Source: Clavelina lepadiformis
Lineage: Eukaryota > Chordata > Ascidiacea > Aplousobranchia > Clavelinidae
Assembly (NCBI RefSeq): GCF_947623445.1
Contig: NC_135242.1
Location: forward strand, 248,001 to 312,000
DNA length: 64,000 bases
Direction: 5' to 3'
Shown here one piece after another: positions 5,576 through 53,610 of this stretch. The notes below the pieces were generated by a model, which did not search any database, had not been told where the DNA came from, and was given only the letters and a program-made list of their open reading frames with translations. Every line of letters begins with the position of its first letter. The stretch's first letter is position 1. Both the position numbers and the translations under genes were made by a program.

Positions 5576-7348
5576 CAACTTAACTACCTGTAAATGTATA
5601 TTTATTGTAATGTCTTCCTTTACATGACATAACTTGGCGTTCGAGTTTGGATCGCGGTACAACGCAGTGGCTGCTTGACACGTGACCTCACATCTAACCA
5701 AAAACATAAATCAAATATTCAGTTGACTTAAACTTGAGTACAGTACTGGGAAAAAAGACGACGGTTAACTGAGAATGATTATGGTAGACATCTTAAACCT
5801 TCTGCTAACCGATGTTCACATTGACACCGCTAGTAGATTGCAAATAACAACCACAAATGACTAAGTTTCAAAGCTGCTGATTGTCGGAGGGCGTTGCTAG
5901 GATGTCCTGCCTCCTGGGGTCGAAGAGGTCGGATTTACCGTACCGAGAAGACAAGAAGCTGACGTTCGTTAAACAAGTATTAATACAAGGACCACGTTTA
6001 ACTGTGACTTTGCAGGCTAACGCAAGACTTAGTCTATTACCAGGCTCTGAGCCTGATAAATGATAATACTGTAGGCGTGACAGCCCACAACAGAAATCGT
6101 ACATTTCATCTCAGAAGATATGCGGCCACCCATTTGATCTCACCCACATGTTTTGAACAAAAGTCTGAAAGTTCCCATTATCGCTCACTTGTTTAGCATT
6201 ACCGGTACCTTTTTTATATAGCTTAGGCCAGACTGGAATAGGCTATAAACGGCAGTTTTTGACGAGAAATCGTGTGTGTAAAGACGCAAATTTTGACGTT
6301 AACTGAATCCTTATTTTTTGTCTACTTTTTATAAATCGGTGTGGAGATAAATAAATTTGGCGTGCACGTTGATAAATTTTGTGCATGCAAACCTGGCAAT
6401 TCTTATGAGATCAAGGACACACGACGGCTAAAAATGGGGTGTGAAAAGGTGTACAAGGTGCATTTTACAGTAAACCGTTTCCAGCCTACTCTGCATACAG
6501 TGTGGACAGTTAACCACCTGTCACCATTTTTCCATATATTAGGGCTTATGAGCAAAGCAAGTTAGTAACTTTCGTTTGTATATCTTCCACGTTGATTGAA
6601 GGGTGGTCATTGTGATGGGACCTCTTGTGCAGTGGAACCTTGCATATACATTTATAGCATTTATACTTATGAAGATTTTGTGTTGAGCGTCAATATATGC
6701 CAGTGTTTAAAAGGAATGCGGTCACTTTTACTCCCATATCAGGTCGAGTGTTGAAGAGATATTGCGACATAATTTCTTTTCTAATACCTTTTAACTCCAT
6801 TCTGTTGAAGTCGGAGTGCAAAGGCATAAGGGCCACAAGAAATGTTACTCGAAAGAGTGTAGTCTATGAACATGATCTTAAAACCCACAAGCAGTTTGTT
6901 TTGTTTGTGTTGTACTCCCTCATCGTTGATGTTTGCACCATTGAACAAATCAGCTTTGAGTCAGGCAAATGTCAACTTTTTGTCTTTTTTTTCTCATCGA
7001 GATTTATAATGTTTCTCTTGCAAAAAAGGCACGCAGACATTGCCTGTGACGAATGTATAATTTGTTGTGCTCCGCTGAGTTGATGTAATTCTTCGCTCCA
7101 TTAAATGCATGATCCCCAGTAAACTATGTTATCAACTATTTTTGCTTTGTGGTTCTGTAATGACTATTATCAAGTTCGTCCAGTGGTAACCAGACGCTTT
7201 TGGAGAATTCCTTTATTTTTGTCGTATTTAGTTACTTTCTGTTGTATTTGTGCTGCATTCCATTGTTTGTCGATAGATCGCGGCCAGTCTACACTTTCAT
7301 AACCTCGAGTCAATATTTTTGCAGAGTGTGTGACGTGGTTTTAACTGA
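5576..7348. other. Spacer with a dispersed-repeat copy
   Basis: No gene is recognised. A copy of a dispersed repeat begins near 6331 (see the repeat entry). The remaining frames, including one of about 128 codons near 6697-7083 on the plus strand, have no recognisable domain and no splice-site support, and their composition matches the surroundings. Confidence 0.5.
6331..6403 (+). repeat. Dispersed repeat with GTGCACGTTGATAA core, copy 1
   Basis: The block ATAAATCGGTGTGGAGATAA followed by TTTGGCGTGCACGTTGATAA and TTGTGCATGCAA recurs in diverged form at about 21311-21360 and 22625-22690. All three lie in non-genic DNA. The length and lack of coding suggest a short interspersed or miniature element; the family is unknown. 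Confidence 0.5.
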
Positions 7349-10300
7349 ATGATGTTTGAGAAAGTGAAGCAAGTTGCCATGGTGATGAACATCCCACTCT
7401 GGGTCATCTTCTCCTCCCTTGTCCTCATCTGCTTGGTCATCATCAAACTCGTCCAGATCCTCATTGGATCGAAATCTTCTAAGAAGCGAATTCTCCTTGT
7501 TGCTGGGAAGGAAGGCGCCGTAAAAAGTGGAAACAAGAAGAAAAGATCAAAGCGAAATCGACCAAACGACATTTCAAGCCAACCTGTAAGATTGTTATAA
7601 GATGTCTCTGTGAAGGCAAGAGTGGAATATTTTGATATACCAGTAATCGTCACTTCTTCTCATCTGTGCAGAAGAGTTTATCGTCCGTCACTGCGAAAGC
7701 CAACAAAATCGGTGAAGCAAACACTCCAACCCCGGAAAGTGGTCACAACCAGCCGACGAAAAAATTTGAAAAGAAAAAGGTAATTAGCCCCAGGGCAAGT
7801 CAGCGCCTCAATTAGTCATATTGATGGAGCTGTGCGATGTCACTAATATAAAGTTCCTACTGTGATGTCACAAGATTATATGTGTTGTTGGTATGCTAAT
7901 TGTGAATGGAATATTGAAATTAAGACTTCATTAACCTCACATTCTGAAGACCATCGGATTGTGGCGCAAACAACAAAAATTGTCAGTACTTTGTGTTTAC
8001 AATTCAATTAATTAATGTTTATATTATGTCGACTCGCGTTTATTGATTTTTATGAAGATATCTGAAACATGAAGCTAGATTTAATATTTACTCTGCATTA
8101 ACCAAGTGGTCTCAGGGTGAGGCCTGGTGCAAAGGTGGTGATGTCAGATGTAAAGAATTCTGTAGTCACACATATTATGGTAAATCCCCTTACGTGATAC
8201 CAAAATTTGAAAAATCGGCCAGAGGGCACTATTAGCCGTATAATAAATATATAATTATTAATTATGATATACATCGTAGCATTTTTAACTTTCTCCAAAG
8301 TATTTATTTACTGATGAATGCTGGATGTTAAGATTAACAGAAAAATGCGACTTTTACATTTTAAAAATTGAATGGGTGTTACTAACTGCAACATGCAAAA
8401 CATTTAATAAACAGTTTCAAAACTATTGGTACCATATTACCAACGCAGACAGAGAAGAACAATGTCTGTTATGATGTCATAATTGATCATTTTAAACATC
8501 ATAACATGTCCAATCCAAGCATGTTCCAGGCTTATATGACCAAATGGATATAGTTTAGGCCTAAATCAACTTGTTTCGCTTAACTTGTGTGTGCGCTATG
8601 GTGTTCAAATTGACAGTTTAAAGCGTTGGAGTTCTTGCTATTCATGTAAACTTATAAAAGATGTTACTTTAAGCCTAGCCACTAACTTGATGATATTAAC
8701 ATTTTGCCGCCCGAGATATTTTCGGACGTATGCGGCTATGTACAAGTCAAAAGGTAAATAAGCTTATGCAGAACAGTTTACTCTAGCTTAAGATGTTTAT
8801 GTAATTTGTTGTTTTCAGGCAAAATCTAAAAAGAAGAAGAACCAGGTTGTGGAAGTTGTCGATCATTCATCGATCGTGGAGGAGGGTAAGATTAAATAGT
8901 AATCTTAATTCCTGTGTTGTTTCTTGTCTACCCAGTCATCCGGTTGCTTCATGCAATGTTTATGAGGAAACAATGACTCTTATCACAAAACATAAACATC
9001 TTGTCATCACACACAGACAGAAACATCGTTACAGACTCATTATGTTTGTATATTCTGCACATTGGCCATCCAGATATAGAAATCACATAAACGTTTCATG
9101 CGATAGCCGTTAGAAGTGCAATGTCGCCAAAATGACTTTATCGTCACAATTCTGTCCAGCAATTGAATATCATTTATGCACAAATGACTCCACGTGCCGC
9201 GACCTCAGCTGAGTAAAACCGATGAACCCAACTCACAGTAATGACTTTGCTAGAGTCACTGCCTACAGGTGACTCTTTCAACTTCTCCTCAGCGACTACG
9301 CTTGCGCCTCTCGTATGCTCAGACTTAGAACTTTAATTTGAAACCAACCGACTTTCCTGTAATCTCTCACGATTTCCCGAGCGACACTAAGTTCATTTCC
9401 TTCATTTATATGTATCTTAGTTTAAGATTTCTATGTGCAGGTGGAGAGTGGCAGACGGTGGACACCAAGGAACAGAAGAGTTTAAGGAGAGAACGCAAGA
9501 AGCAAGATTCTGCCGATTATTTAATAACTTCAGTGGCGAGCAAATTGCCGTTGCCATCTTACAGCTCAGTCCCAAGCATGGCAAAAAGTAATTATATTTC
9601 TATGACATGACATAATGGAAAATAATAGATATCAAATTACTTGGTGTTGTGTAAAGTGCATCGTAGATTCTTTGAAGATATTTGACAAATCTTAAACAAG
9701 ACCCGGCACCATGTTGACATTTCCTCACAACATTGCACCATTTGTAGCATAACCACTAAATTAAGATTAAGGTGATTATGAGATCGCAAGTTACTTTGTT
9801 CATGTCAAATACTGTCTGCGATCTGGTTGTTTTCCAACTAACATGCTGTCTCAAATGACAATAGTCCTTTAGCTCAGTTGTATCAAGATATGAACTTAGA
9901 AGCAAAAAAGTAATTGTCTTGTTTAAACCCCGATTTATGTTACCTGGCTGTAACTCAACCAATTGTAGTTAGCTTGATGGAAATAATAATTTCATTGTGA
10001 TGAAACAATTATGCTTATTGTCTAACAATTGAGTTGCTGAATATACAAATTTCAGGAATGGCTGGGCACATTATTTCCGTGGCACTTCCCTTGTCGTATT
10101 AATGCTTTATTGACCTTCCACAAGATGGCAGTAGATGGCAAATTAACCGTGTCCACCTCATTGGTTTGAAATTCGAATGCTTCGTTATAAAAACAATCTG
10201 CAGTTCAAAGGATCAACGTCAAAATAGTTGGACGTCGTTCAAAACAAAATCAAGCTTTTTGAGCTCAGAGTCCTGTTTTGCAATTTCCTCTAGATGGCAG

Positions 10301-13300
10301 CAGTCAACCAATAAATTCCACATAAACACATGCTTTGAATTAAAGCGTCAAAATTGCTGAATGTGGAGCCAACCCAATCACCTAACATATATTGTGTCAA
10401 GCAATACATGCTTTGTTGCATCATTATGATGTAAACGTGACATTTGATCAGCTTTGACCTTATTATATTCCTTTCTCATTTGAAATACGTAATAGACATA
10501 ATATGATGTCATACAGCTCTATTTGTGATGTAAATTTGATTGACATGGCAGTGGGAAGTTGAGTGACGGCTTCCACCATTCACTGTGTTTGCTTTAAATT
10601 GTGTTGCCCCCGCGCATAGTGGTGTCAGATTCATAACCAACATATTTTGAGTCAGTCTTATTTCATCTGCAAAGTGCGCAGTTTTTCTCTGCATTCTTAC
10701 ATTTTGCTCTACATCTGTCACAGCAATTATGAAGCTTCTGCTTCTGTTCTTGGCTTAAATTTCTTCTCTTTTTTGTTTATCTGAAACTATTTTTCCTTCG
10801 ATGCAGTGAAGTGACCAACATGCTGCGACCCAAATCGTGACATGGTTCAACGCATGTTTTCTCTCCTATGGAGGGAGTAGCAGCCTGGCATGATTGAATA
10901 TTGCCAACATCCTTCCTTTATTGGGGGCAGAGCCTCACTGTGGCTGCCTAATCACTGCACAGCCAACCTATAGTTAGTCGAGTGAATATACAAGAAAAAT
11001 TTACAGTGTCCTTCTATCACTATGCACAGATATCGCTCCACGCTTTGCCCAAGCTGCTGGTGAGACTTGGCAGGATGGAGGGAGCAAGCGACAGTCAGGT
11101 TTTAAACCCAGCCCAGTTGTCAACCGAACTCCTATGGTTTCTACTATTTTGGAGCAATCAAACTGGCTTCCATCAAGCAAGTCAAATGTTCCACGTACGT
11201 ATCATGTTGTCTATGCTGCTCTTATTATGTCGATATTCAGCTTCAACATGAAGTAGTGGCAAGGCACTGCTTTGTGAGTTTATTTGGCCATCACTGAAAG
11301 TAATTAGTTCTGTGATTAGGTTAAGATGATATTTGCTGTTGCGCCGTTTGTTTAAATATTTTGTTTATGATGTCATTAGTGGTGTTGGAACCAAAGAAAT
11401 CGCCGGCGTTGATCAATAATTTTTCAACATCACAGGCGACATCCTGGACCCCGATGGGAGTAGGCGACGGTGAGTTATTTCCATCTTTTATATTACATAG
11501 ACATCACTCATCGCAGCAGTACGTTGCGTGGTAACTCTTTTTAACTGGTTTATGAGTGATTATTACCTCATAGGAATGATTATGACGCATTTTGAAAATA
11601 AAACTTCTCTTAATTGATTTTTGATGTAAGTTTGTGCGGATGCTATTCCAACAGATCCTACTACATCATAATCATCTGTTTGTTGCATCAGCAGGGTTGT
11701 CGTGGCCAAGTGTAACTTCCCCTCCGACGTGGATTGAGCCAGGTGCGTAAAATTTCCTCTGCTTACATTTGTGCTCATGATCATTGTGTGGACGAATGTT
11801 ATTATTTGCTCGACCTAAATTTATTAGATACTGGCAAAGCTGAGCTTTATAACGGCGCCAAACATTTGCAATTTGGTGACATCAGCCCATCATCTCTTAA
11901 ACAAGATGGCAATTTTATATTGTGGGAGCCGCATGCCAGCCAGGCAGCCTCCAAACATAGATTTACTGGCACTGGCTTGCTAGCTTCATCAATCTGGCAA
12001 AATTTGCAAGATAAATTCGGTGTGGATGAGGCTTCGTGTAAGATATCGGCTTTCATGTTTCGGTTACACTAACGCTAGGGGTTTATGATGTCACAGTAAT
12101 GTTTGTTGTAGAAAACTCCTTGCTTGAATTCTGTTTATACCTGAAATGATTAAAACTTGAATATGATTCTAAACGTTCTGTGTGTGCTGTGTTTGTATTA
12201 ACTGCTTGGCTTGGATTGTGTGATGAATGCCTCGCTCATCGCCTCGCATGTCACGACGTTTCACTTTCTATGTCTATGAAGAGGAAGCTGCTCGCTGTGG
12301 TTGACCTCGGCGCATTTAAAAACACGAGCGGTTTTCTATAAACATGGTTTGATAAATAGACGGCAGGAAATGATGTCAGCAAGGCGTGAAATGCTCTTGA
12401 TGGTCGACACAGGCAACCATCTAGTCAATGTTTCATTATTTCTGCTTCTACATGCGACAGTATTTGTCTGGTTAAGATATTTCTCTTCCATTGTTTGATT
12501 TTTCAGAAAGTTTTTTGTTTAATTTCTTCAGCTTTTCTGTTCCATCGAAGGCACGAGTCGTGCAATAAATCATTTAAGGCTTCCAGCAAGGAAACTGGAT
12601 CGTATGGTTTCATATTATTTCCTCTCTTTGTTTGCCTTCCTCTACTAATCCATCGCACAGGCTGCGCGCTCCATACGCTACAGCAGCATGCTTGTTAACT
12701 TCAAACCGTAGACAGACATTTTAATTTGCTTTGACTAGAAGTTGATGATTTAGAAGCTTGTGTTCAAAAGTAGCTCAGTAGTGGTCAGAGGCTTCGATGG
12801 ACCAAGTTTTTTACTAAACATTAACTTGTGTAAAATTAATTGGATTTAGAAGTTGTCAATGTGAGCTTTATGAGTTCTGACAAAAAGCTCGTTGTTAGGG
12901 GACCAAGCTGGGGAGTTGGGGGCTTGGAAAGATGAGGCTCAGACTGAAGATTGGGTCCATGTGAGCACGCCAACCCCAACACAGGGTAACGAAGACTGGG
13001 TGAGAAGCTCGTCAATGTACACCCAGGTAACCACCACGAACACTCTCTAAGAATCGAGTAAGCTCTGATGGGAGGGTTCTATATGAAGATGTAAGCTATT
13101 CAGGCTGGAATTGCCGACGTCTTCATTTGCAACCACCCCATTCATTTCGACGAATCAGGATGAAAAGCCGTCACTCGATGGCGAAACCTCAGAACGTGGT
13201 TCAAGCTCAACGAAACACTCTGGAGTTCCGTCAATCGATTTCTGGGCACTGACATCTCATAATTGTGTTCTAATGCTTTCATCAATTCATTGCCACTTAC

Positions 13301-14264
13301 CATGACAATTGCACTCGTCTGTACCGCCTTCTAGTGGTGGCGGACAGTGGTTGCAATGATCCTGGTGGTGGCAGCTGAGCATCACTAAAGTCCACTCACA
13401 AGACAGACCTGCGTTTTAAGGCGGGAGTTTGGGATTTCTCACTTGAAACCCAGGACCTGTTGTTGTGGGCGGAACGATCTTCAACAATTTCATCGCGATC
13501 TCATATTTTTATTATTTTCTCCGCTTTATTTCAATTTGTTCTTCAGGGGCTGTCCACTTTCTCACAACTTTCCTCCAAATTAATCCCGCCCGCGGTAACC
13601 ATGACAACGTTAATGGGAGGTGAAAACTTCGTGATGGAGCCAGAGGGATATTCTGTGTCGGCGTTGGTTGAAGAGGACCCGTGGAACATGGACATCTCAT
13701 CCAAGGATGAGGATTGGAATCCTCCGGAGGCACTGTGGAGCAACCCTAATGACGAGTGGAAAGTTGCAATCTCCCCGACCAAGCATCATCCAACCTACTT
13801 CGTGAGTTCATCTCGGGTCAACTTGGTTTTCACCTGTGTTTATGAGATGTCTGTTGTAGGAGGAATCAAGCGACAGCGAAAAAGTTCCTACTTCTAGCGC
13901 CACCCAGCAGAGTGTTGTTGGGGCGGGCGCAACAATAAATTCGACCAATCAAAGCGCAAATAAGAAACCTCGTCGACGCCGCAGAAAGAAGCAAACACAA
14001 GAAGTAAATACATATTGTAACGTCACCTCGTGATTGTGACGCGGTTAACATGACGACATATTTTGCAGACTGCGTGTGACGAGGAAGAATTGAGAGTAAA
14101 GTCACCAGTAACCGAGCAACCTGTCGAAGCAAGCGCGGACGTCCAAGGTGAGTGTCAAGGTCATAAGATTCGTGTCAGGCCGAGTATTTTCTCTTACTTC
14201 TGCCTCTACAGAGTGGTCGACCCCGGGCAAGAAGAAGCGAAATCGTCCGAGGAAAGCAGAATGA
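7349..14264 (+). CDS. MTDH: Metadherin/LYRIC-like protein (12 coding exons)
   Basis: Exons read at 7349-7585, 7672-7779, 8819-8885, 9441-9587, 11380-11469, 11695-11742, 11828-12037, 12899-12999, 13547-13801, 13860-14003, 14069-14147 and 14212-14264. Phases agree throughout and give about 512 residues (human MTDH 582). The protein has one N-terminal membrane segment (about residues 15-40, IPLWVIFSSLVLICLVIIKL). Long Lys-rich stretches follow, then GEWQTVDTKEQKSLRRERKK, a Trp-rich middle (AWKDEAQTEDW, DEDWNPPEALWSNPNDEW) and a basic tail ending KKKRNRPRKAE. The DWNxPxxxW stretch corresponds to the vertebrate MTDH segment known to bind SND1. In vertebrates MTDH is an ER and nuclear scaffold for RNA-binding partners. 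An acceptor at about 7322 implies a 5' UTR intron or trans-splice site. AATAAA is at 14322. The exon at 11828-12037 has the weakest family support. Confidence 0.86.
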
Positions 14265-17144
14265 AGCGAACAAATTTTATTGCACATCTAACCAGGCCGC
14301 TCACTATTATTCAGGATACTTAATAAATTACGTCATTTTGGCATTTTTCTCTTTTTATTGTCAGGTTTTAAAAGTCGGCGCTTATTTCGAGTTCTGTGCA
14401 CTTATTGCTATGGCTCCCGCACAAGCAAATCACAGGGCGGTTCAAGGAACCAGATCGATAGTCGCGGAAGCATAAACAGCAGCCTGAGTGTCAGAAGCTT
14501 GCACTTGAGTGAGGTCTGCAACCACGTAAATTTAATTTCGGTGGAATGTTGAATACCTGGCCAGTAGCAGGCCGGTGTTTGGTGGCGGCCATTACATACC
14601 GGGCTAAGTGGCCAGCATTGATCTGAAGCACCGCGTAGGCATTAGAGGTTCCATTACGAGGCAAATCGTAGAAAGTAGTGTATGGGTTGGTGTATTGCGT
14701 ACAAGGTGATTGAATTCACCACTTGGCAGCGTGCTTCGGAATCCAAGCACAGTATTTAGTCGTGCTGTCATGACATCATTGCTGCAGCTGCCTTGGCGGA
14801 TTGCAATGACGTATTTCCGTGTTCAGCCTGTTTCACTTTCAACCGATACTTTACATAGCAAACTCCCGGAAATTACGTCTTTATGGCGGTCTGCGCGCCT
14901 GATTGTCCTATAACGTTTCATAAAACTCCACAATGTGTTCAAGTAGAGTCAACTTGATGCGATCCGCATGAAAAAGCGTTAAACGCGACATTGCTTGAAG
15001 CTAAACGCGTAAGTTTGGTAAAATATTCTGTTACTCATTGAGCGAATTACCAAATGAAAATAACCTTTTCGGTTTCATTTTAGACAACCCTGGTGAACCA
15101 AGATGGGACAGGTATTTGTGTCGGATTTCGATGTTTGACGATTAAACCATGATTTAATTAACAAATAATTTCCTTTGTTATAAAGTTGCGTTGATAAATT
15201 GCATTTTCCCTCCATGACATGACAAATTAGGAAAAATCGGTATTAAATCTGGTACAAATGCAAACTTTTCCATCTAATACAAAAGAAATAAGTCTTAAAC
15301 ACCATAGATGTAGGTGGGTGATGACGCAATTTCACCAAGACGAAAGAATGTGTTCTATTTTAGGTCAAAACATTGCACTGTGAACAAACCGTTTCTAAAT
15401 GACAAGCGGTGGTATCAGCAAACTTTTAAGGTTGCAAGTATTTTGGTCGCTGGTAGGCTATTAAAACTTAAATGTGACGTCAAAATAAAAAGTAGTTATG
15501 GAATGTAAAGCACCAAAATCCCACAGAATTTAAATTTTGGCGGCTTTTTTCCTTCGATTAAACTGGTCAGTGAAGTAGATTTTTGTTGGCAATACTGGTA
15601 TCTTCGTTTGTGTGCTGAGATGCTCAACTAGCAATTATGCAATTTAACAAACGCGCACAGTTTTCAGTTGGATAAAAAAAAACTTCAACTAAGGTCTATT
15701 GTAGCGGCAATTGAACGAAATCCATCTCGTCGCTAGTTGACGCTATCACATTTGCTATTGATGAGGAAAAATGTCTTGGCATCTTTGTCGCTTTCTTTTC
15801 ATTCCGATTTCTAACTTTGTCTTAAGCAGGATAATAAAAAATTCAGATTTAGAGAATGTCAAATTAAGGCTGTAGCCTCATTGCACTAAATTCGCTCCAG
15901 ATGACTCAGGTGCCTTCATCGCACCTCATAAAACGAACCTGACAAAACATCATCCCCACCTCTCTTAGGTTGCCATAGGCTACTGCAACTCACATTGAAG
16001 GGTTAACCACAACCTTGTCCCAAATAAGATATTACACTTATTGTAATGCATCAAATTATTTTATCCTAATGTCTCTTTCAAAGTTTAATTAAAAAGTATA
16101 AAATTGAAATCACAAAGTTGTTACAAGTTACAATTAAATAAGCCAGAGTTTTCTGCGATGTCTAAATCGGAAGGCCTTCATGTGGTATCTTCTACGGGGC
16201 TTTCCCATGCAATGTTTTGAAATGTACTGAATCTCGGCAGTAGGCTTGGACCGGTATTAGGCGAATGCAAGCGATGCTACTACATTGGGCCTGTGCTACT
16301 TGGCACCAAAAGAAAATTAGCAAATAAGTTTTTTTGTGCGAAAATTACCGTGTTTTATTGAAATTGGCTTTCATGCGAGCTGAATTGCAAATATTTGCCA
16401 CTATTTCACCGAAAAAGAAACGTGCGTACTAATAGCCTAAGCTATTTTCAATAGTTTCTTGTTAACCTATCTGAGATGTTATTAACATAGAACACCTAAA
16501 CCTATTATAAATCTACTTTCTAATGTAAATCTAAGTCTAATGAAACCTCATTTCATTCATTCAAAACCCATTCTTTTAACCTGCTGCCTGTTTTTATCAT
16601 CAGGCTGCGTGACCTACATAAGGTGAAACAGTCACTACAATTTGCATCAAGTTATTAAAATTAACAATGGATTCCGCGCTTGCTAAAGCCGGCCCAGCCT
16701 ATGATAACTGGATGGTAACGGTACCTACGCTTTGGCACTCTACTGTAGCATGTGTTTTATTGTGCAGGACTATAGGAGTCTCACCAAGGCTGTTTAGTTA
16801 GGCTATTTATGTTCTAATTTTGAAGATCAAACAATGCACCGTTAAGAAGCACATCCTACATCCGTATGTAGTGTAATGCTAAAGGTTGTAAAATATGGGA
16901 CAGCAAGGTTGCAGTCATTTTATCAGTAGCACGGTGTGGGTAGTCTATGACGCGTTCGATATACTGTCATTCGTAGATATAGGGCGTTAGGTCAGTAGGT
17001 GAGAGAAGTGAATATGCTAGAAGTTGATTTTAGTCATTTAGGGTTTAAACTGAGTTTTAGATTACAAGGTAGATTTAAGTTTTTATATTATAACGTGCAC
17101 ATTAAGTTAACGTTAGCCGGTAATATTGCCTTCTTCTCTGTACG
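14265..17144. other. Gene-poor spacer
   Basis: Apart from the metadherin 3' end (AATAAA at 14322), no gene is supported. The frames are short and unlike any family I know. A short exon-like stretch at 16667-16712 ends in a good donor but has no partner exon. Confidence 0.5.
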
Positions 17145-17995
17145 ACTTGATTTGACTTGCATTATATTTTAGCTTGACTTGACTTGAGAAATTTAGTAAT
17201 TTGTCTCGACTTGACTTAAGTGAACTTCCCAAATGACTTGACTTGAGTCTTAAAAAAATTACTTGGTTACAGCCAGGGCTGGGGAGCCACTGCAAAAAAG
17301 CATAGGCTCCGGCTCCAGCTCCGGAGCTATCAAGCATTCATCCACTAGCTCCAGCTCCGGAGCTATAAACTTTTAAACAGCGACTCCGGCTCCATTAAGA
17401 GTGTATTGTAGCATTTGTCACAGTAGGATGCAATGGTTTAGAAGTCTGCACTGCAGCGCTTAAAATTCTGTTAAAAAATATAAACACACATTTCAGATTT
17501 AAGCTGAATGAAAAACAAGGGAAGCCACACTTTTGTTGACTTTTGTTGTGCTTTTTGCTAGTCTGAAATCAAACAACGAAATCACCACAACGAAAATGTA
17601 AAAAAAAACAATTCGAACAACAAAAATATTTTGAGGTCAGTGCCAACGGCTATTGTAGTTTTGTAAAAACAACAACAACACTGAAAACAGCGTTGGGGCA
17701 AATGCAGCGTTTTCAAGGTCTGGTGACTTCAGCTGATAAAGTCCAATGTAAAATTTAAGTGGCACGCGTGCCAGGGGTTGCCGACCCCTGCTATAGGTTT
17801 TAAAAATAGCAGCTAAGACAAATTATTAAAGTTTGTTATATTCAATACTGGAGCTGGAGCTGATAAATATTTTGTAGCTCCAGCTCCGGCTCCACAAGAA
17901 ATGTTTAAAAAGGCTCCAGCTCGGCTCCGGCTCCGGAGAAAATGCTTGGCTCCAACGCTTCCGGCTCCGGCTCCCCAACCCTGGTTACAGCACTG
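17145..17995. mobile_element. hAT end remnant interrupted by a younger hAT
   Basis: From 17145 to 17252 the sequence repeats ACTTGACTTGA-type words, a common subterminal pattern of hAT elements. The block ends, after the inserted element at 17274-17983, with GTTACAGCACTG at 17984-17995, a typical hAT terminus (reverse complement CAGTGCTGTAAC). The younger element therefore landed inside the terminal repeat of this older one. The other end of the older element was not found. Confidence 0.55.
17274..17983. mobile_element. Non-autonomous hAT element with 8-bp target duplication
   Basis: The 5' end CAGGGCTGGGGAGCC and the 3' end GGCTCCCCAACCCTG form a 15-base terminal inverted repeat with one mismatch. 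The element is flanked by a perfect 8-base direct duplication GTTACAGC at 17266-17273 and 17984-17991, diagnostic of hAT insertion. Both ends carry clustered GGCTCCGGCTCC words in opposite orientation, a subterminal array probably used for transposase binding. The 710-base interior has no transposase frame. Around 17760-17791 it holds what looks like the end of another hAT copy (GCACGCGTGCC then a short palindrome ending GACCCCTG). Confidence 0.88.
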
Positions 17996-44500: not shown

Positions 44501-47066
44501 TAACAATTCATGGGTTTCATGATTCGTGTGATGGCTCATGATTCATGTGATGGTTCATGATGATGTCATGTGACGCAGATATTAGTGAGTGGGAGATTGA
44601 GGAGGAGAGTGTGATGGTAGGAGATGTCGATGGACCCGCTTCCTACTTTCTCGAGGAGAACGATGTCGATAACGAGACCATGTGAGCTTTCAAGCGTGAC
44701 TTTGTCCAGGTCAAGTTTAACCCGAACTATTGATCCAGGTCAGGTGACAACGACGTTGATGACGCAAGATTAAGAAGTTCGACGGAAGACTCGACGTTGG
44801 ATTTATTCGGAGCCTTAAACCCCAATGACAGGTGTGTGGTGAGATTTTGTGCCTTCGAAGAGATGAGTTTTATCATACAATGGCCGAATATTTATCGCAG
44901 TGCATCATGGGAATTACCCAACTCGCAGCTGATGACATCACAGATGGGCAGCTTGTACTGGATCCAAAACTCGCATAAGTCGACTGCGAGGAAAAAGACA
45001 AACAAGAAGGTTGTTGCTCTTTGCAATCTGCGATAAGGTTACTTGTCGAATATTAGTTTCCTGGATATCAATTTATGTTATCTAGGTGCTATGTGGTCAC
45101 GTGACTGGTCATCGATTCTCGAAACATTTCTCATCTCGTTCCAAGCCGAGATCTGTGACATCATCCAAGAAGAAGCGGTATTCAATTGATGATGTCATAC
45201 AGTGGATATCGTCATGGAATTGTAATAATCTTATATTTTAGAATTTCATCGAATTTCACGTCAAATCATGAAGGAAACAATTCGCTGCTTGCACTATTAC
45301 GTCATACAAGGCATTGTGAGGTATCAACCCTTGTAATCATGAACAATCCATGAACATTTCTCAAATGAAAATTTTCCAGGCTGTCACGTCATCGATACCG
45401 TCGGCACTGACGACGATGTCATCAGGTTCATCCATGATGTCATCAAGCTCATCCATGATGTCATCAGAAAGCGATTACCATGGTAACAGCGGTCGTAGCC
45501 CGCGAGGAGCATCTTTTAAAGGTGAATCGTCCAAGAATGGAGCGGGCAGTGGGGATCGGAGAAGATGGGAATCTTCCTTTAAAAATCTTCGAGTAAGTTC
45601 AACCTGCCACGACCAATCACAAACTCGGTTTCATCCTCCATCTCATCCCAGGAGCAATTATCGGAGCTCACTGACACCGTGGCAACGGCGACCAACAGCA
45701 TCAACTCCGCCAGATCGCCGAGAAGAGCTCCCTCCTCCAATCCTGTCAGCGAAATGCGTGTTTCCAAGTCAGAAAATTCACTTTCATCGATGACTGTGAA
45801 GAAGGAGAGAAAGTCGAAAGTAAGACAAATAACTTCCTGGGATAACTTTGAACTTGAAATTAATTCTTCCCGATTGTTTAGTCTCCGTCGAAGCAGACTT
45901 CCAGCGCTGATGGAATCTCCGGCAACGATTTATTCTGGGCAGGTAGTTGTAAGAAAAATGATTGGAAACACTGTCCCTGCCATTACTCTTGTCGATTGTT
46001 ATGTCATAATTCAGAATCTCAAAGCTACGATTGGAAACGAAGTCAGTCATCGCATTCAACCAATCACATTCGCTCTCTGTTTGGTGACCATGGTGACGGT
46101 CGCCATAGGCAACGCGCAGTGGAGAAAGCTCATTGTTCGAAAGGTTGAGTTTGACGTCATTGGTGCAGATAAGAAAGCCAGTAATTGACCAGATGCTTGT
46201 GTTTAGATTCGTCGCCTCGGAAACGACCGACCATCGATGAAGCGTCCCCCCATAGCGTAGGTTGACCATCACGTGAATAATCTCGCGTTTTTTTTAGTAA
46301 CTTGCTACATTTTTAGATGCCGGCTCGTGGAGTGAACCCAACTGACCTCGCTTCTGCCCTTGCCTCAGTGACCATGTAAGTTGGCTTATTACGTCACAAT
46401 GTTCTATTGTGGTTTAATATTGTCTCAATTTACAGCGATGAAGAGAAAGCTAAAAAGAAGCCTGTGATTCCCCCCAAACCGAGAAGGAACTTGAACCCAG
46501 CTAACCTTGGTGAGTCTTTCGCTTTCTTTATTTCTGTTATCAAAGTTTATGACGTATTGGTGACGTTAACGTTATTTTAGATCATGACTCTTTACCGCTG
46601 GAAGTGGCAAGCTCTTTGCAACTTCACGCATCAAACTCACCACAAGATGGCGAACTTGAGAACACCTCAATGCTTGTCCCTGGAACGCCATCTGTCGTTG
46701 AGAGTGACGACATCATAAGGTAAATAATCTCAATGACGTCATAAAGAGTGTTGATATTATTTGCAGAAGATGACCTTCCATGCCCCCTATAACCACTTTT
46801 CTATATTTTAAGTTTTAATGAAAGCCCCCAACCTGATACTCGTTCTCAAGGAGTTTCAACCAATAAGCAAGCCGCTTCTTCCAATGTCGTCATATCCGGT
46901 GAGATTCTGTGACGTAATATGAAAGAATCGTCGTTAGCATTGTAATCTTTAGTTATGATTCCGCTACTTAGATGACGTCAGCTCAGATGGTCTGGACCTC
47001 ATTTATTTGCAAGGGAAGGGTTGCTATAGTGACGACAGTACTTACGTCATCAGTGATGACGATTGA
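41573..47066 (+). CDS. TRIM37: TRIM37 E3 ubiquitin ligase (about 29 exons)
   Basis: Coding exons start at 41573 (MADHQVE), 41671, 41834, 41943, 42136, 42325, 42653, 42799, 42967, 43214, 43418, 43754, 43902, 44136, 44318, 44579, 44739, 44901, 45086, 45380, 45652, 45882, 46015, 46207, 46317, 46436, 46581, 46813 and 46972; TGA is at 47064. Order of domains: RING ([20 protein letters not shown]), B-box ([24 protein letters not shown]), coiled coil ([19 protein letters not shown]), MATH ([37 protein letters not shown]), then an acidic, Ser-rich tail. Sequence and order match vertebrate TRIM37 closely through the MATH domain; the protein is about 1,000 residues. Vertebrate TRIM37 acts in centriole-duplication control, peroxisome biogenesis and histone H2A ubiquitination. 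Phase between 45009 and 45380 is not fully resolved. AATAAA is at 47145. The terminal exon is duplicated at 53.35 kb. Confidence 0.95.
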
Positions 47067-48506
47067 AATCCATAACATTTGTGTGTGGTGCTTGTTGTTA
47101 CTATTTTATATTACTCAAAATATTTCATTGTCGCCTTTACCTAGAATAAATATTTTATTTCTATGAAAATATCTTTGTGGCTTAGTAGTTGAATTTGTTC
47201 CAATAAAAGTAGCAGGAAATTTGATTTGTATTGAAACCATGAATTTGGCACTTTTTCTTTGAACCTGATGTAATAAGAGGTCAGCCTTGTAATTTCGCAC
47301 CAAGCAACTGGTGAGTCGTAAATATACTTGCTGCTGTTTTGCCGAAAGACCCAACTTGCTAATCTAATGATCTTCGTTGATGGAGCTAAATGTTGACTCC
47401 TCTTTAACTGCATTTTAAAAGGAGTCGAGTTCGTGCAGGGTAGCGACACCATGCAGATGATGCAAATGAAAAATCACTTTCTCAGCATTATCTTTTCCAC
47501 AGAAATACGCGTCACGAACAATGATTTCGTGATTGTGTTTTTTCCAGAATGTGCCAAGATCATGGCGGCAGCTCCGATCGAAGTCTCTTGTAATTCAATG
47601 GATTCCTCTTGTTCATTTTGACAAAATGAAGTAACGTGAAACCATTCAAACGCGTCCCTCGCATGCTCGTCTGCCAACTGGATCCTTTAATTAGCAGAAG
47701 GACGAGATCCTTTTATACAAAAGCAGTCGAGCTTAAAATCGTCAAATTCTCCAACTTTTTAGTGACTTGCGATCTGATGACGTATGTGGCGCGGTAAAAA
47801 GATTTTCCGCAAAATTAACTTCTTTAAAATTTCAGAATTTGCTTCAAATCTTTGCCGGGAACGAGTTTAGTTTGTGAGATGGCAGTCGGTGATAAAAACG
47901 AAATTACGTTAAAAACAGCGTATTCGAGACCTTGCATTGACGCAACAGCCTAGTTCAAATGATGCAAGATATTGTTCTCTATAACAAAATGAACATTTTC
48001 AGTCCTTAGGCCGCTGTTTTTAAAACAATCAGAATGTTCAAACAATTGAAGTAGCAGTAACCAATAGGCAGATATTTGAGATAGATTTCAAACCCAAACG
48101 CTTATGGCAGACGCCGGATATTTCTTAGAAAGGACCAAAAGGGCGGAATTATGCCAAAGTTACGCAAAAGATTATTTGCAGTTACCAATTGTAGAGCCCT
48201 ACCTCTTGAGTTTTATAGTTATGACGTCACATTGCCAATATAGTATCTTGCAACTGAAGGTCAACAGATTTTCAGAAATACGATGCATTTGTGACGTCAC
48301 TCTGTGAATGTCATGTCATCTTTACATTCGTATCAAGAATTGAACAACTCCGACGTTGTTTGAATTAGTTTCCGTCATACGATAGCGTTCTAATGGTTCG
48401 TCGTCGGAGAAAGCAACGATCTCACTCATCAATACAAACCAGCAGATAAAAATGCCGTCCTTCCGTGGAAGGAAATGGCAGTAAAATTTACAGAACGATC
48501 TGAAGC
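47067..48506. other. TRIM37 3' UTR and spacer
   Basis: The TRIM37 3' UTR ends near AATAAA at 47145. Past 47190 the sequence has no supported gene. Minus-strand frames of 67-103 codons between 47115 and 47677 have no known domain. Confidence 0.45.
47712..47719 (-). promoter_or_regulatory. Possible minus-strand TATA box
   Basis: TATAAAAG reads on the minus strand here (CTTTTATA on the plus strand). Minus-strand frames of 60-100 codons lie just downstream, but none resembles a known protein, so the promoter call is speculative. Confidence 0.25.
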
Positions 48507-51500
48507 ATGCTGGCTTCCTTTTGTGATGCAACGTCATATGCAATGCAGGTTTTTGTGTCTTTCCTGGCTTGCTTTCTACTTATCAAATATGTCATAGCTG
48601 GAACTTGGCACCAGTTTTCATCGAGCAAAGAATTTTTCGTTGAAAGTGACCGTTTTGTGCACGACGACGCAACCACCGATTGCACAGACAGAGGGGGCAC
48701 ACTGGCTGTTGTTAATAGCCAGGAAATCCAAAGTTTTCTGGAAACCATTCTAGGTATGAGTAGGCTGTTGTTTTCAAAATTTCAACATTGCAAAATTGTT
48801 GCTCTACATTCAACAACAACAGCAATAGTAAAAAATAACGATCTTGGCAATTTCTCCAGATTATCAAGGCCGCTACTACATCGGGTTAACAAAGACGAGC
48901 GAAGTCTTTGTGTGGGCGGACGGCACAGCGGAAACATGTTGTTACACCAACTGGCAAGTTTTTCAACCGAACTCAGATCCTAATGAACCGTGTGTCCTCA
49001 TTGGTTACCATAAATGGGAGGACTGGCCCTGCCCTGCCGCAAATGGATGCAAATGTAAACGAGGTAGTAATTAGCTTCTTAACGTTTCCGTATCAGACAT
49101 CACTGAACGGACGGTTCTGGTCTCCTTTGGCGCCGTGGACCAAGCAATAGCGTTTGACGTGAGAGGTAGTTTCAATAGAATTGTTTAGCACATAATGTTT
49201 GACACATTTGCTTGGTATCATTCCTACATAAATCTACTTTGTGCAATTTGACGTTAATAACAACTTTATCTTGTCGCTTGAAAGTAAGTAACTGTTACTT
49301 CTAAACACCCGTGACGTAGTATATGCTCTTAGTGGCGTGTGTTAGCAATGGAATCGTCATCGAGACTTCCTTATCGTCACGTGTAGTCGTGGACAACCTG
49401 CCATCCAACTCGCTCTGTGTAGCCAGCGTTCGGGCGCTTGCTGAAGCAACGAGCACGGCCGTCGCATATTCTCACTTTTCTTTGACGGTTTCTTTCACTA
49501 CAGGTGCATTAGAGCTATTGAAGGTCGTGCTTAATTGTCCGAACCAGGCTGACCTTTGAAATGATTTAAATCTTTCAAAACGTTCCAGCTCCGGTCGTCT
49601 TAGCTCTCGATGCCTCTCCATCCACCAACTTCATCGCTGTCAGCTTCTCGACTCTCGATCGAGCGATTTCTTATTCCATCGCTTCTGCTCCGGGAACAAA
49701 AAACTTTATCATTTTAGCATCTGATCTACTGTTTGATGTTCTTTCAATAAGAAGTTCAAACGCAAACAAACGCAACCATAGCGACCGAGTTCAAACAAAC
49801 GATCAAAACAAACGCAACCATAGCGACCGAGTTCCAACCGACAGTTTACCTCGACGAGGCTGCAGGCACCACCAGTGAGTTTCAGCCTGTTGCAGTGAGT
49901 GTCCCGGCCGAAGCGTTGGAAATTGCGCGAAGAGAAAGAAGAGGAAGAAGGAGGAGAAATGTAGATGATGCTGACCCTTTGCGGGTCGTTTTCTTTGCTC
50001 ATCGCACCAGTGAATTGTTCCCGTCTCCGGACAAGCCAAACTGGGTTTGTTTTTGTTCATTCTACGCAACAAAACAATGCCGCGGTCCACACACCACGTG
50101 ATAATGAGCTTGAAGTATCTTTCGAAAGCGATGGGAGAAAATCCTTTTGTGTTGGTTTCAGATTGTATCGGTTGATGTCGAGGACAGAGCCATCGAAGGC
50201 CTTTCCAATCCTGTTGTCATCAAACATCTCAGCGTTAATGTGAGTGCGGGACGGACGAGCAATGACGAACCTTTTAAGGTGGGATCAAACTCATATTAAA
50301 CAAACTTTTTCTAAATGTTTGTGTCTAGTGTTTGCTGATTTTCTGTTTTCTTTAGTTGTCTTACGTGAACGAGACTTGCGCTTTCTGGAACTTTTCAACA
50401 AATTCTTGGTCAACAGAGGGCTGCTGCTTGGTGGAGGGTTCGAATCCGCCCGAGTGCAGATGCAATCATTTGACCAATTTCGCCGTGCTCTTGGTGAGTG
50501 GAAAAGCTTTTGGACATTTTGTACTTAAAGTATTTTTGCCAAAGCTTTGAGTGAAGGTTTCAACAAGAACGACATAAAATATTATTTGACCCCTTATTTC
50601 AACTTTTGTTTTTGAGTTTTTTCCAGAAAATGTTGCACAAACATAAAACTTTCAAATGCAGCTGCTTCACAATCTTTGATGAACTTGCCAAAACTCCTGA
50701 CAAAATGTTTAGTTTTAATGATATCGTGAAGCATTTTGGTTCATGGGGAAATATTGTGATTTTGAGATCCACAAAGTCACGTCGTTTATGTTAAAAAAAT
50801 ACGTTTATGAGTAACTTTGCGTTTGCGCATTTGTGATTTCAACAGATTAACTCGGGATTATTTCCCCAGGCAATCTATGACATTCCGGACGATGTTGCGT
50901 TGTCGACCACGGCAGGATGCAGCATTTCCGTCGTATTTTTGGCCATCACCCTGCTCCTGCTCATTGTACCGAAGTAAGTCTCAGCTCTCTTTGATTTCCT
51001 TGAACTCTGTTGCCGCGTGGGGAATAATTTGCTTTCTCGATCCAGGCATATCCGCATGAGGCGCCATATAAAGATGCTCATCAACATGTGCCTCAACCTG
51101 ATGCTTGCTTACGTCATCTTCCTCGCTGGTGTGGGCAAGAGAAGGGACGCACCTTTATGTGTGGCTCACGCTGTGATGCTGCATTTTTTCCTTCTCTGTA
51201 CCTTCTGCTGGATGGCAGCTTACGCCCACAGCCTTTACAGATCCGTGGTACAGGTTCGTGATCTAATGTTAGCAGAGAGAGGTCCAAGTTTAAATTTAAT
51301 GAAAAAGCTCAGTTGGTTTTCAGATTTAGGCCCAAATTATTTTAACCCACCACTTTTAGGTTCTTCGTTTGAACTGGCACAGATATTTGACGAAGATGTC
51401 GGCAGCCTGCTATGGTGCTCCCCTGGTCATCGTGGCCGTCAACGCCGCCGTCACGCTTTATTTTTCCGAGCTCCCAGATGCACCACCCGTGTGTGACGCT

Positions 51501-52512
51501 GGTATGACGTCAGTTATTCTACCTATTTAAATTCCTTCTTATGATTTCAATGGATTCCTTATCTAAACCGGACAGCTTTGTATTATTACGTCACAGAACC
51601 CAGCTCTGAGCTGGCAGTGTCGGCCATGATTGCAGATAACATGTGTTGGCTTCATGGCAACTCACTCTACTTTTCATTCTTGCTTCCAGTCGGGCTGATT
51701 CTCACCTTCAACTTGATCGTGTTTTATTTCGTCATAAGAAACATCACCTGTAACCGGAAAAAGGTAAAATTTCATCGACTGTTGCATTCTTTCTGCCAAC
51801 GCAGATTAAATTTAAAGCGATTTCGATTTACAGTGAGTTGAGCCGCTGCTTCACGACCAGCTTCTTATAAACTCTAATATAGAAAAATTACAAGACTTAT
51901 TATTTTTGGTCGGTTAGACTGGGTTTAGTTTATAATTTTGAGTTCTGGACAATCAGTTTGAATGCACAAATTTCACCGCCTAATGCGTCAGTGCAACTCA
52001 CCAGGTATCTTCGACCACACCGCGATCGACAATCAGGCAACGACTGGTGGCCGCGGTGTTAATCGCGAGCTCGGTCGGTCTCGTCTGGCTGTTGGGATAC
52101 TTCTTGATGCTCTCAGATGACGTCATCTACTTTACTATAATGAACTGGTTGTTCACTCTGGCCACCTCCATCCAAGTAAGTGGTGAATTGGTCGGTGCCT
52201 CGTTTGATGGCTTCGATATAGACGAGTATCGACACAATCACCTGTGAGCGTTGTTGAAGTTAATGCATGAATATGAGTAGAATGCGCGATTTACACGGAG
52301 TGAATCTTTTGCTTCAGGGATTTTGTCTCTTTCTTCTGCTCTGCGTGCACAATGGCGACGTGAGAGACACCTGGTGGCCGGCCGTTTGTAAATTTCTTCG
52401 ATGCAAATGTCGACGTCGCGCACCAAGTGGTGGCAGTGTGGAGAAATGTGGACGTGTCTCGCAAATGACTGAAACCAAAGTGGGAAATTACTTTTACACC
52501 AGTGGCAGCTGA
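48507..52512 (+). CDS. Adhesion GPCR with N-terminal C-type lectin domain
   Basis: Exons read at 48507-48753, 48860-49063, 49097-49165, 49333-49503, 49752-50044, 50162-50278, 50356-50493, 50870-50973, 51046-51253, 51396-51501, 51576-51763, 52005-52175 and 52318-52512. A signal peptide precedes a C-type lectin domain (CTDRGGTLAVVNS, YIGL, WADG, EPCVLIG, WEDWPC). An FN3-like segment and a GAIN domain follow. The GAIN domain carries the polybasic run RRERRGRRRR and then VVFFAHRTSELFP. The GPS motif (CAFWNFSTNSW, CRCNHLTNFAVLL) keeps the canonical cleavage site His-Leu/Thr. Seven membrane helices follow (TM1 SVVFLAITLLLLIV; TM6 LVAAVLIASSVGLVWLLGYF), then a short Cys/Arg-rich tail. It should be a self-cleaving surface receptor; the ligand and coupling are unknown. 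Either ATG 48507 or 48543 could start it. The exon choice around 49504-49751 is uncertain (see findings). Confidence 0.92.
49589..49737 (+). other. FN3-like half exon that does not fit the frame
   Basis: Behind a good acceptor (CGTTCCAG) a phase-1 frame reads APVVLALDASPSTNFIAVSF and SYSIASAPGTKN, like the first half of a fibronectin type III domain. Continuing it runs out of frame with the downstream GAIN exon, and no phase-1 donor is visible. It may be an alternative or dying exon of the adhesion GPCR, or an assembly indel may lie nearby. Confidence 0.4.
49768..49836 (+). repeat. In-frame 42-base duplication in the GPCR stalk
   Basis: The words for TNATIATEF occur twice, 42 bases (14 codons) apart, at the start of the GAIN-region exon. 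The duplication keeps frame and repeats an N-glycosylation sequon (Asn-Ala-Thr). Confidence 0.85.
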
Positions 52513-53346
52513 TGGCACGTGCTGTATTTGTTTGTTTCTTGCTTCGTTGAGATCGGTTTTGTCTTTTCCTTCGCTGCAAATTATTTCCTACACATTCGTT
52601 CAATATTTTCACTCTTTTCCCTGCAAGTGTCTTGCACGGTTTAAAAATTTGCGGAATTCTTGACCTGTTCAATTTAATGAGTGATCTTAAAACCAGTTTA
52701 TGTCATTTTTCAATTTTCTAAAACGTGATTCCTGTTTTGCGCTCAGCTGCACACTTTGAAATTGCTTCAAATAACTTATAAACATGGACATTTCCAATCG
52801 TGAATAACAACCAACCCTGATTAAGAATTGACGTTAATTTCGACTCAGCAAAGCATTGCAGTTGGACAAATAGTTTATGGGACAGAACTTTGTAGTCTGC
52901 GCCATAATCTTTTCGTGTGTTCAACGCAATTACGTCAGTCATGTTGTTTCCATAGAGTTTCAATCGCTCGTCGCAATTTCACAATTTATTTCTTAGAATT
53001 TGTTTTAACAACATTTTCAAGTTGTGAAATGATCAGTAGTGCCTCTTAGTGAGCAGTAATCAATTAATCATTGAAATATTTTAACACTAAAGCACGCTAA
53101 TGCTAAACCTGCGTATGAGCTTTCAATCAAAATGCAATAAAAACTTTTTCCTCAGCATTTGCCGGGAATCGAATTTAGAACCTTCATTTCAGAAGACAAA
53201 AAATTATATGATCGTTCTAATTTTTTTTTTTGCCCCAAATTTCAAATATATGCGTTTCAAAATAGTTTGGTCAGATATAACTTTCTACCACTCCGCCCCT
53301 ACATTATAACCCTTGTCCCATCCTGACGTCACGTTGTGACATAACC
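52513..53346. other. Spacer after the adhesion GPCR
   Basis: This is probably the GPCR 3' UTR, with AATAAA near 53137, followed by spacer. No coding region is recognised. Similarity to the TRIM37 end begins abruptly at 53347. Confidence 0.45.
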
Positions 53347-53610
53347 TCGTTAGCATTGTAATCTTTCGTTATGATTTCGCTACTTAGATGACGTCAGCTC
53401 AGATGGTCTAGACATCAATTATTTGCAAGGGAAGGGTTGCTATAGTGACGACAGTACTTACGTCATCAGTGATGACGATTGAAATCGATACATTTTTGTG
53501 CTGTGTTTTTTTTATTACTATTTCATATTTCTCAAAACATTTCATAGACCCTTTACCTAAAATAAATATTTTTATTTCTTTAAAAATACTTTTGTGTTTT
53601 TATAGTAGCA
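53347..53610 (+). pseudogene. Second copy of TRIM37 terminal exon and 3' UTR
   Basis: From CGTTAGCATTGTAATCTTT onward this block matches 46931-47190 at roughly 90% by eye, offset by 6,416 bases. The copied acceptor (GCTACTTAG), the open frame starting DDVSSDGLD, reading [20 protein letters not shown] and ending at the same stop, and the AATAAA at 53562 are all preserved. In the exon I count one synonymous change and two amino-acid changes (Leu to Ile, Ile to Asn). No upstream TRIM37 exon is duplicated with it. It could serve as an alternative last exon spliced across the intervening GPCR gene, or be a recent non-functional duplicate. The surviving frame over about 30 codons is suggestive, not proof. 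Confidence 0.9.

Follow-up and report, generated by a model that had tools for sequence, protein, structure and literature searches.

A probably young, chimeric and truncated adhesion G-protein-coupled receptor gene with a C-type lectin head in the sea squirt Clavelina lepadiformis

A C-type lectin and a GPS are combined in one protein in the polycystin-1 family (PKD1), and the adhesion G-protein-coupled receptors (GPCRs) ADGRE5/CD97, ADGRL3 and ADGRG2 are not known to carry a C-type lectin. Lectin C-type domains have been described in adhesion GPCRs of amphioxus by Nordstrom et al (2008; PMC2246102), and in a Ciona survey 21 of 30 had one GPS domain alone (PMC2396169). The parts of the literature searched contained no description of a lectin-adhesion GPCR architecture outside amphioxus. 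The gene reported here belongs to the sea squirt Clavelina lepadiformis and occupies 48507–52512 on the forward strand of a 64,000-nucleotide stretch (C3:248001–312000), which is named the window and whose numbering is used for all positions given without a contig. The comparison of its exons with those of related genes in the same genome (209,060,895 bases in 95 contigs) indicated that it is probably a young chimeric gene, in which a truncated adhesion GPCR has come to stand behind a C-type lectin domain.

The gene consists of 13 exons with GT–AG introns, which together encode 741 aa without internal stops. The Pfam search of the spliced protein, which a preliminary description made from the window alone had proposed as a check, detected Lectin_C (PF00059, residues 53–149, 7.2e-14), GPS (PF01825, residues 374–412, 1.3e-13) and the class-B seven-transmembrane (7TM) domain 7tm_2 (residues 423–680, 4.1e-28, with 245 profile positions covered, 5–249 of 250). 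The exons for the lectin, the GPS and the 7TM domain are on one strand and in that sequence. The lectin cysteines and WADG pointed out in that description are present, and its GPS with an intact His-Leu/Thr was likewise confirmed as CRCNHL/TNFAVLL in exon 7 (50356–50493). The stretch TNFAVLLAIYDIPDD directly after the GPS aligns with ADGRE5; an exon 8 start at 50846 was replaced by 50870, with AVLL-AIYDIPDD aligning with ADGRE5. Exon 8 (50870–50973) holds the end of the tethered-agonist stretch and transmembrane segment (TM) 1, followed by TM2–TM3 in exon 9 (51046–51253), TM4 in exon 10 (51360–51501), TM5 in exon 11 (51597–51763), TM6–TM7 in exon 12 (52005–52175), and the end of TM7, the cytoplasmic tail and the stop in exon 13 (52318–52512). 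Pfam called no fn3 in the Fn3 remainder of the window and no GAIN family in the window protein, NCBIfam gave no match for exon 1, and a weak sub-cutoff Pfam match to CLPTM1 (0.0032) was regarded as chance.

The gene was searched by tblastn against loci L001–L033, and two close copies were found at C3:6.77 Mb (L021) and C3:6.74 Mb (L026), together with three further ones (L015, L017 and L022). In tblastx, the receptor exons showed mostly 65–84% identity in L021 and 53–80% in L026, and the tail was less similar. A genome-wide protein search with the part from GAIN-B to TM3 returned 72 matches, the top 17 of which all belonged to the window gene and these five copies on chromosome 3. Another relative, at C5:1.26 Mb, was 59% identical over 41 and 37 aa. 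The GPS, 7TM domain and GAIN-B of the window gene are homologous to those of the chromosome-3 subfamily (L021, L026, L015, L017 and L022), and a furin-type motif is common to them. L021 and L026 differ from the window gene in having EGF-type arrays, in their SEA-like module and in the greater length of the GAIN region. Each of these two was read over 17.4 kb, with the 5′ ends lying beyond that stretch, and contains from the N-terminal side long EGF-type arrays (recognized by eye), an Fn3-like stretch and a SEA-like module (Pfam 5.1e-4, below the curated cut-off; motif GSVVA), and onward two Fn3 (fn3 on L021, Pfam 1.2e-5), further EGF-type exons, a region interpreted as the GAIN front, GAIN-B, GPS and 7TM. 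Searching the rest of the window for the missing EGF, SEA and GAIN modules with positions 7000–17401 of the 17401 of the L021 stretch gave nothing above 26 bits. The window contains no match to the region that precedes GAIN-B in L021 and L026, and a complete GAIN with subdomains A and B was not found there. From its place we infer that the missing region is GAIN subdomain A, and Pfam called only the GPS there. By this exon-by-exon homology, the window receptor is a truncated member of the chromosome-3 subfamily in which only Fn3 pieces and most of GAIN-B are kept. Both paralogues are preceded by very long arrays in which the EGF-type repeats are nearly identical (L034 and L035; C3:6.78 and 6.75 Mb), with one aligned open stretch of 6.3 kb.

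The places where the lectin and the receptor meet were evaluated with a splice-site weight matrix made from 24 donors and 24 acceptors of three copies, in which donors scored 1.7 to 10.7 and acceptors 3.6 to 14.1. Exon 1 (48507–48753) has a phase-1 donor GTATGA with a score of 8.7, and exon 2 (48860–49063), which encodes the second half of the lectin domain with WADG, QPN and the terminal cysteines, exits through a phase-1 donor GTAGTA at 49063 with a score of 0.6, under all 24 reference donors. The first joint is the 33 nt from the lectin exon to the acceptor at 49097 (49064–49096), and an intron of 33 nt would be very short. Homology to the Fn3 of L021 (NVSVSD) starts at 49081, ahead of this acceptor, and an in-frame TAG at 49072–49074 lies between. 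The optional exon 3 (49097–49165) covers the early part of Fn3 #1, of which the very beginning is missing, and the exon 3 donor (1.2), at the position of which the two paralogues have GTATAT/GTATGT, is also under every reference site. Splicing the lectin exon to 49333 omits this piece and keeps the frame, and exon 4 (49333–49503), the second part of Fn3 #1, is phase 1 at both ends with splice sites inside the reference range. The remnant of Fn3 #2 (49589–49728), its first half, has lost its old donor and has an acceptor of 1.9, again lower than any reference acceptor, and is most likely skipped.

The second joint (49729–49751) is a deletion joint of about 20 nt that resemble the end of the former intron preceding the GAIN-B exon. 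Because the Fn3 #2 match ends at 49728 and the GAIN-B exon starts about 20 nt later, the second half of this Fn3 and everything up to GAIN-B are gone. Exon 5 (49752–50044), with the start of GAIN-B and the furin-type site, is entered through the acceptor AATAAG, which scores 1.7 and is under all 24 reference acceptors; GAIN-B continues in exon 6 (50162–50278). Joining the end of exon 4 at 49503 to 49752 is in frame, for which the chance rate is one in three, and reading through the remnant is out of frame. A cryptic acceptor at 49896 (4.2) is inside the reference range and in phase by frame, and its use would shorten exon 5 by its first 48 codons. The chains A, B and C, in which none, one or two Fn3 exons are skipped, are all in frame, so that one transcript with lectin and 7TM is permitted by the frame, with weak splice sites at the joints. 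By these scores, the gene has its weakest splice sites among those inherited at the joints, and several splice routes are available. The acceptors 49782 and 49824 were rejected with a score of −9.6; they belong to a repeated stretch (49764–49833) at the GAIN-B exon start adjoining the deletion joint, where two near-identical copies 42 nt apart encode NATIATEF. This repeat was seen by eye, and Tandem Repeats Finder did not list it. A 250-bp stretch flanks the gene on both sides (about 46931–47179 and 53347–53596) with 90% identity; it may be a dispersed repeat and could have taken part in the rearrangement.

These comparisons suggest an order of events in which the ancestor would have resembled the chromosome-3 paralogues, with EGF arrays, Fn3, a SEA-like module, two Fn3, EGFs, a longer GAIN, GPS and 7TM, and would have lost two long stretches. 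By one rearrangement, a lectin module of two exons would have come to lie midway in the first Fn3 exon; by the other, one half of the next Fn3 exon would have been fused to the intron directly preceding the GAIN-B exon. Phase-1 introns border the modules around these joints, so that a message from which the damaged pieces are skipped stays open and would encode a signal peptide, the lectin domain, the Fn3 remainder, GAIN-B without its front part, GPS and 7TM. The protein, if made, would most likely be a short lectin-headed surface receptor that carries the usual tethered agonist (TNFAVLLAIYDIP) and that a furin-like protease would nick at RRRR/N inside GAIN-B. As its GAIN fold lacks the front part, autoproteolysis of the GPS at HL/T would be inefficient.

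The age of the truncation was approached with a codon model of three branches, which covered 517 of 587 codons. Overlapping segments led to the double mapping of one codon near YIDDESG, and no material effect of this is expected. The window branch had an omega of 0.15; omega = 1 was rejected (2dlnL = 105) and no difference from the paralogues was found (2dlnL 3.0). When omega was estimated piecewise with branch lengths fixed, it was 0.04 for the GPS, 0.16 each for GAIN-B, 7TM and exon 4, and 0.36 (0.16–0.55) for exon 3, and the half of Fn3 #2 had 0.29 (0.16–0.45) against 0.24 in the paralogues. A piece unconstrained over the whole branch would have an omega of about 1, and by simple mixing the upper bound of 0.45 permits at most about a quarter of the branch to have been unconstrained. 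The low omega of the Fn3 #2 remnant means that constraint was released late or never, so that either the truncation is young or the half exon is still used. On the sequence comparison as a whole, the deletion looks young.

Several observations weigh against a young chimera or soften it. The lectin of the window, the sole lectin query, had no match in the 17.4 kb read of L021 or of L026, but both genes extend 5′ of these stretches, and the ancestor may have had a lectin. The omega of the Fn3 #2 remnant showed no difference from that of the paralogues (2dlnL 0.1), and the remnant could still be used. It is retained in open chains with a mini-intron that starts at 49754 (donor 49753, 2.8) and ends at one of the candidate acceptors 49845 (2.2), 49866 (1.1) and 49896 (4.2), a route considered less likely; three donors inside the remnant score −7.9, −2.2 and −4.2. 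The selection signal may predate the deletion, and neither present function nor decay is proven by it. An assembly error at the joints is unlikely, as the genome was assembled with HiFi reads at a quality value (QV) of 67.4 according to the genome report (PMC10884593).

The lectin domain resembles those of solved lectins, with 93 distinct sequences matching at E ≤0.001 and the best at 8.2e-11. The preliminary description had read its calcium-site triplet as EPC in place of EPN. This was rejected by the alignment, in which EPC falls at a later Glu-x-Cys position; the EPN position is QPN (NWQVFQPNSDPNEPC), which HMMER aligns with FEPN of mannose receptor 2. The calcium-site residues of the window lectin are Q, N, E, E and D (QPN, NE and WED), and the known types of calcium and sugar site have EPN or QPD, Glu and WND. 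As QPN is neither of the EPN nor of the QPD type, the sugar binding of this lectin is not predictable. The best-scoring other match in the genome was at C8:18065896 (35% over residues 8–113, 1.4e-8), and the top identities, 44% and 47% over about half of the domain, were found in a multi-lectin region at C5:15.29–15.30 Mb, to which L039 belongs. The lectin modules of L039 carry an intron at about the same place as the window lectin, where exon 1 ends, and all four of the module ends read there have a phase-1 GT shortly past the last cysteine, as has the window lectin. This shared arrangement suggests that the window lectin was a module meant to splice onward.

What the gene makes at present is a separate matter from its origin, and a functional fused receptor is a possible product, short of a likely one; otherwise it is a decaying copy. 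The account that fares best, with a chance approaching even, holds that recent deletions broke the receptor and that its open exons are not yet degraded, the lectin being perhaps made alone and ending at the TAG of 49072–49074. The in-frame stop and the frameshift that result when the joints are left unspliced (chains E and D), the weak splice sites and the young deletion speak for such decay, although the other exons have neither stop nor frameshift, the lectin appears built for onward splicing by the phase-1 GT at its module end (4/4 in L039), and the in-phase cryptic acceptor at 49896 scores within the reference range. A somewhat more tentative account is that of a functional lectin-adhesion GPCR that signals upon ligand binding and is encoded by a single stable gene under selection, made up of the lectin and the 7TM exons. 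Such a receptor agrees with 13 open exons, with chains A, B and C being in frame, with the low omega of the GPS, GAIN-B, 7TM and exon 4, and with further loci in the genome that have lectin and GPS in order; it has to accommodate a donor and an acceptor under all 24 reference sites exactly at the new joints, a weak exon 3 donor where the paralogues keep theirs, a missing GAIN front and an Fn3 #2 remnant that dates the change as recent. That a secreted lectin gene is followed by a 5′-truncated 7TM gene with its own promoter is improbable. The lectin frame does hit a stop 8 nt into the putative intron, but only 17 nt separate the lectin exon from the Fn3 homology (33 nt to the acceptor), leaving too little room for a 3′ end and a promoter, and the 7TM part would be without a signal peptide. 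Neither AATAAA nor ATTAAA occurs in 49075–49332 or past the 7TM stop in 52513–53000, and with such signals missing from both stretches the two-gene question is not discriminated by them.

The young chimera would carry different meanings in these cases. If the fused message exists, domain shuffling has been caught soon after the event, and deletion, phase-1 introns and exon skipping would together have reduced a giant EGF receptor to a short one with a lectin head. If the message is absent, the locus is an example of a recently broken receptor gene that looks intact to an exon reader. An aldo/keto reductase reading frame, open in one piece, is found elsewhere in the window at 131–1000 (Pfam 2.1e-51).

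The polybasic run RRERRGRRRR (49928–49957, forward strand) contains a predicted proprotein-convertase site, RRRR/N. The aligned motif, of the form R-X-K/R-R, is present in all six subfamily copies read, as RRRR/N in the window, RRKR/N in L021, RKKR/N in L026, L017 and L022, and RKKR/S in L015, with the two outer arginines invariant; L033, the one other adhesion GPCR of the genome in this comparison, is without it. The motif lies between VPAEAL and LRVVFFAHR, inside GAIN-B. The furin site proposed in the preliminary description gained support from this conservation. The predicted cut would fall inside GAIN-B and not in a linker ahead of it, so that the GAIN domain would be nicked; by analogy with GPR126/ADGRG6 the parts may remain associated, and the lectin-bearing part would not simply be released, as that description had expected. 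Searching solved structures with a profile of the GAIN-B alignment gave only two designed helical proteins, and the loop was not placed. GPR126/ADGRG6 offers a parallel, with a furin-type second cut besides the GPS after which the halves stay associated; that cut, at (R/K)-X-K-R, is in the SEA domain, whereas the window motif is in GAIN-B (PMC6954182). It is conceivable, though less likely than not, that the GAIN of this subfamily is built for two cuts, one furin-like in an early GAIN-B loop and the other by GPS autoproteolysis, with a possible third at GSVVA in the SEA-like module of L021 and L026, and that the window gene is a newborn lectin-headed version that has been stripped of most of the ectodomain while keeping both GAIN cuts. 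If the motif is cut, the domain holding the receptor halves is nicked in a second place, which would change the shedding of the ectodomain and the exposure of the tethered agonist. We consider this conserved GAIN-B motif the part most worth following and the more general point of the locus.

The frequency of lectin and GPS neighbours was determined from 57 GPS matches in the genome (67/67 candidates scored) and at least 142 Lectin_C matches (150/291 candidates scored). A lectin was found within 10 kb upstream on the same strand for at least three of the 57 GPS matches and downstream for none among the matches listed; at 20 and 50 kb there were three upstream versus one downstream, among the matches listed. 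The split lectin of the window gene escaped the Lectin_C search, and with it the count becomes at least four of 57. In three loci the domain order was taken from unspliced reading frames. In L033, two lectin domains are followed in order by a sub-cutoff EGF match, the GPS and part of 7tm_2, and L005 has lectin and GPS-7TM frames in order. At L040 (C8:19322900–19331900), Pfam matched a lectin, a laminin-G-like, a thrombospondin type 1 and, just below its cut-off, a hormone-receptor domain together with a GPS, and called no 7TM in the two frames past that GPS. Many very similar 7tm_2 matches cluster at C4:0.49–3.24 Mb, and no GPS match among the 57 lies between them; this looks like a local expansion of class-B receptors. 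A role in self/non-self recognition had been suggested for the window gene; nothing was found that ties it to recognition in the one haplotype examined, and Clavelinidae have not been studied for allorecognition according to a review (PMC7344649).

In comparison with known receptors, the window GPS is best matched by vertebrate ADGRE5/CD97 and ADGRL3, and the 7TM domain by ADGRG2, then ADGRE5, ADGRG4 and ADGRL2, and orthology is not claimed for either. Polycystin-1 has an 11-TM fold, in contrast to the class-B 7TM (Pfam 7tm_2) of the window gene. The preliminary description had placed the lectin directly N-terminal to GAIN/GPS/7TM and regarded this architecture as outside the standard vertebrate ones; the exon order on one strand agrees with that arrangement, but two Fn3 remnants and weak splice sites lie between, and precedents exist both in the amphioxus receptors reported in 2008 (PMC2246102) and in the three or more GPS loci with an upstream lectin in this genome. 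As in the window gene, the C-type lectin of those amphioxus adhesion GPCRs is in the N terminus, and the window gene differs from them, by the text and a figure legend of that report, in belonging to an EGF-rich sea-squirt subfamily and in missing the GAIN front. The lectin-adhesion GPCR architecture seen here is a variant of something known, and the homology with the chromosome-3 paralogues suggests that the combination of lectin and 7TM in the window gene had a local origin.

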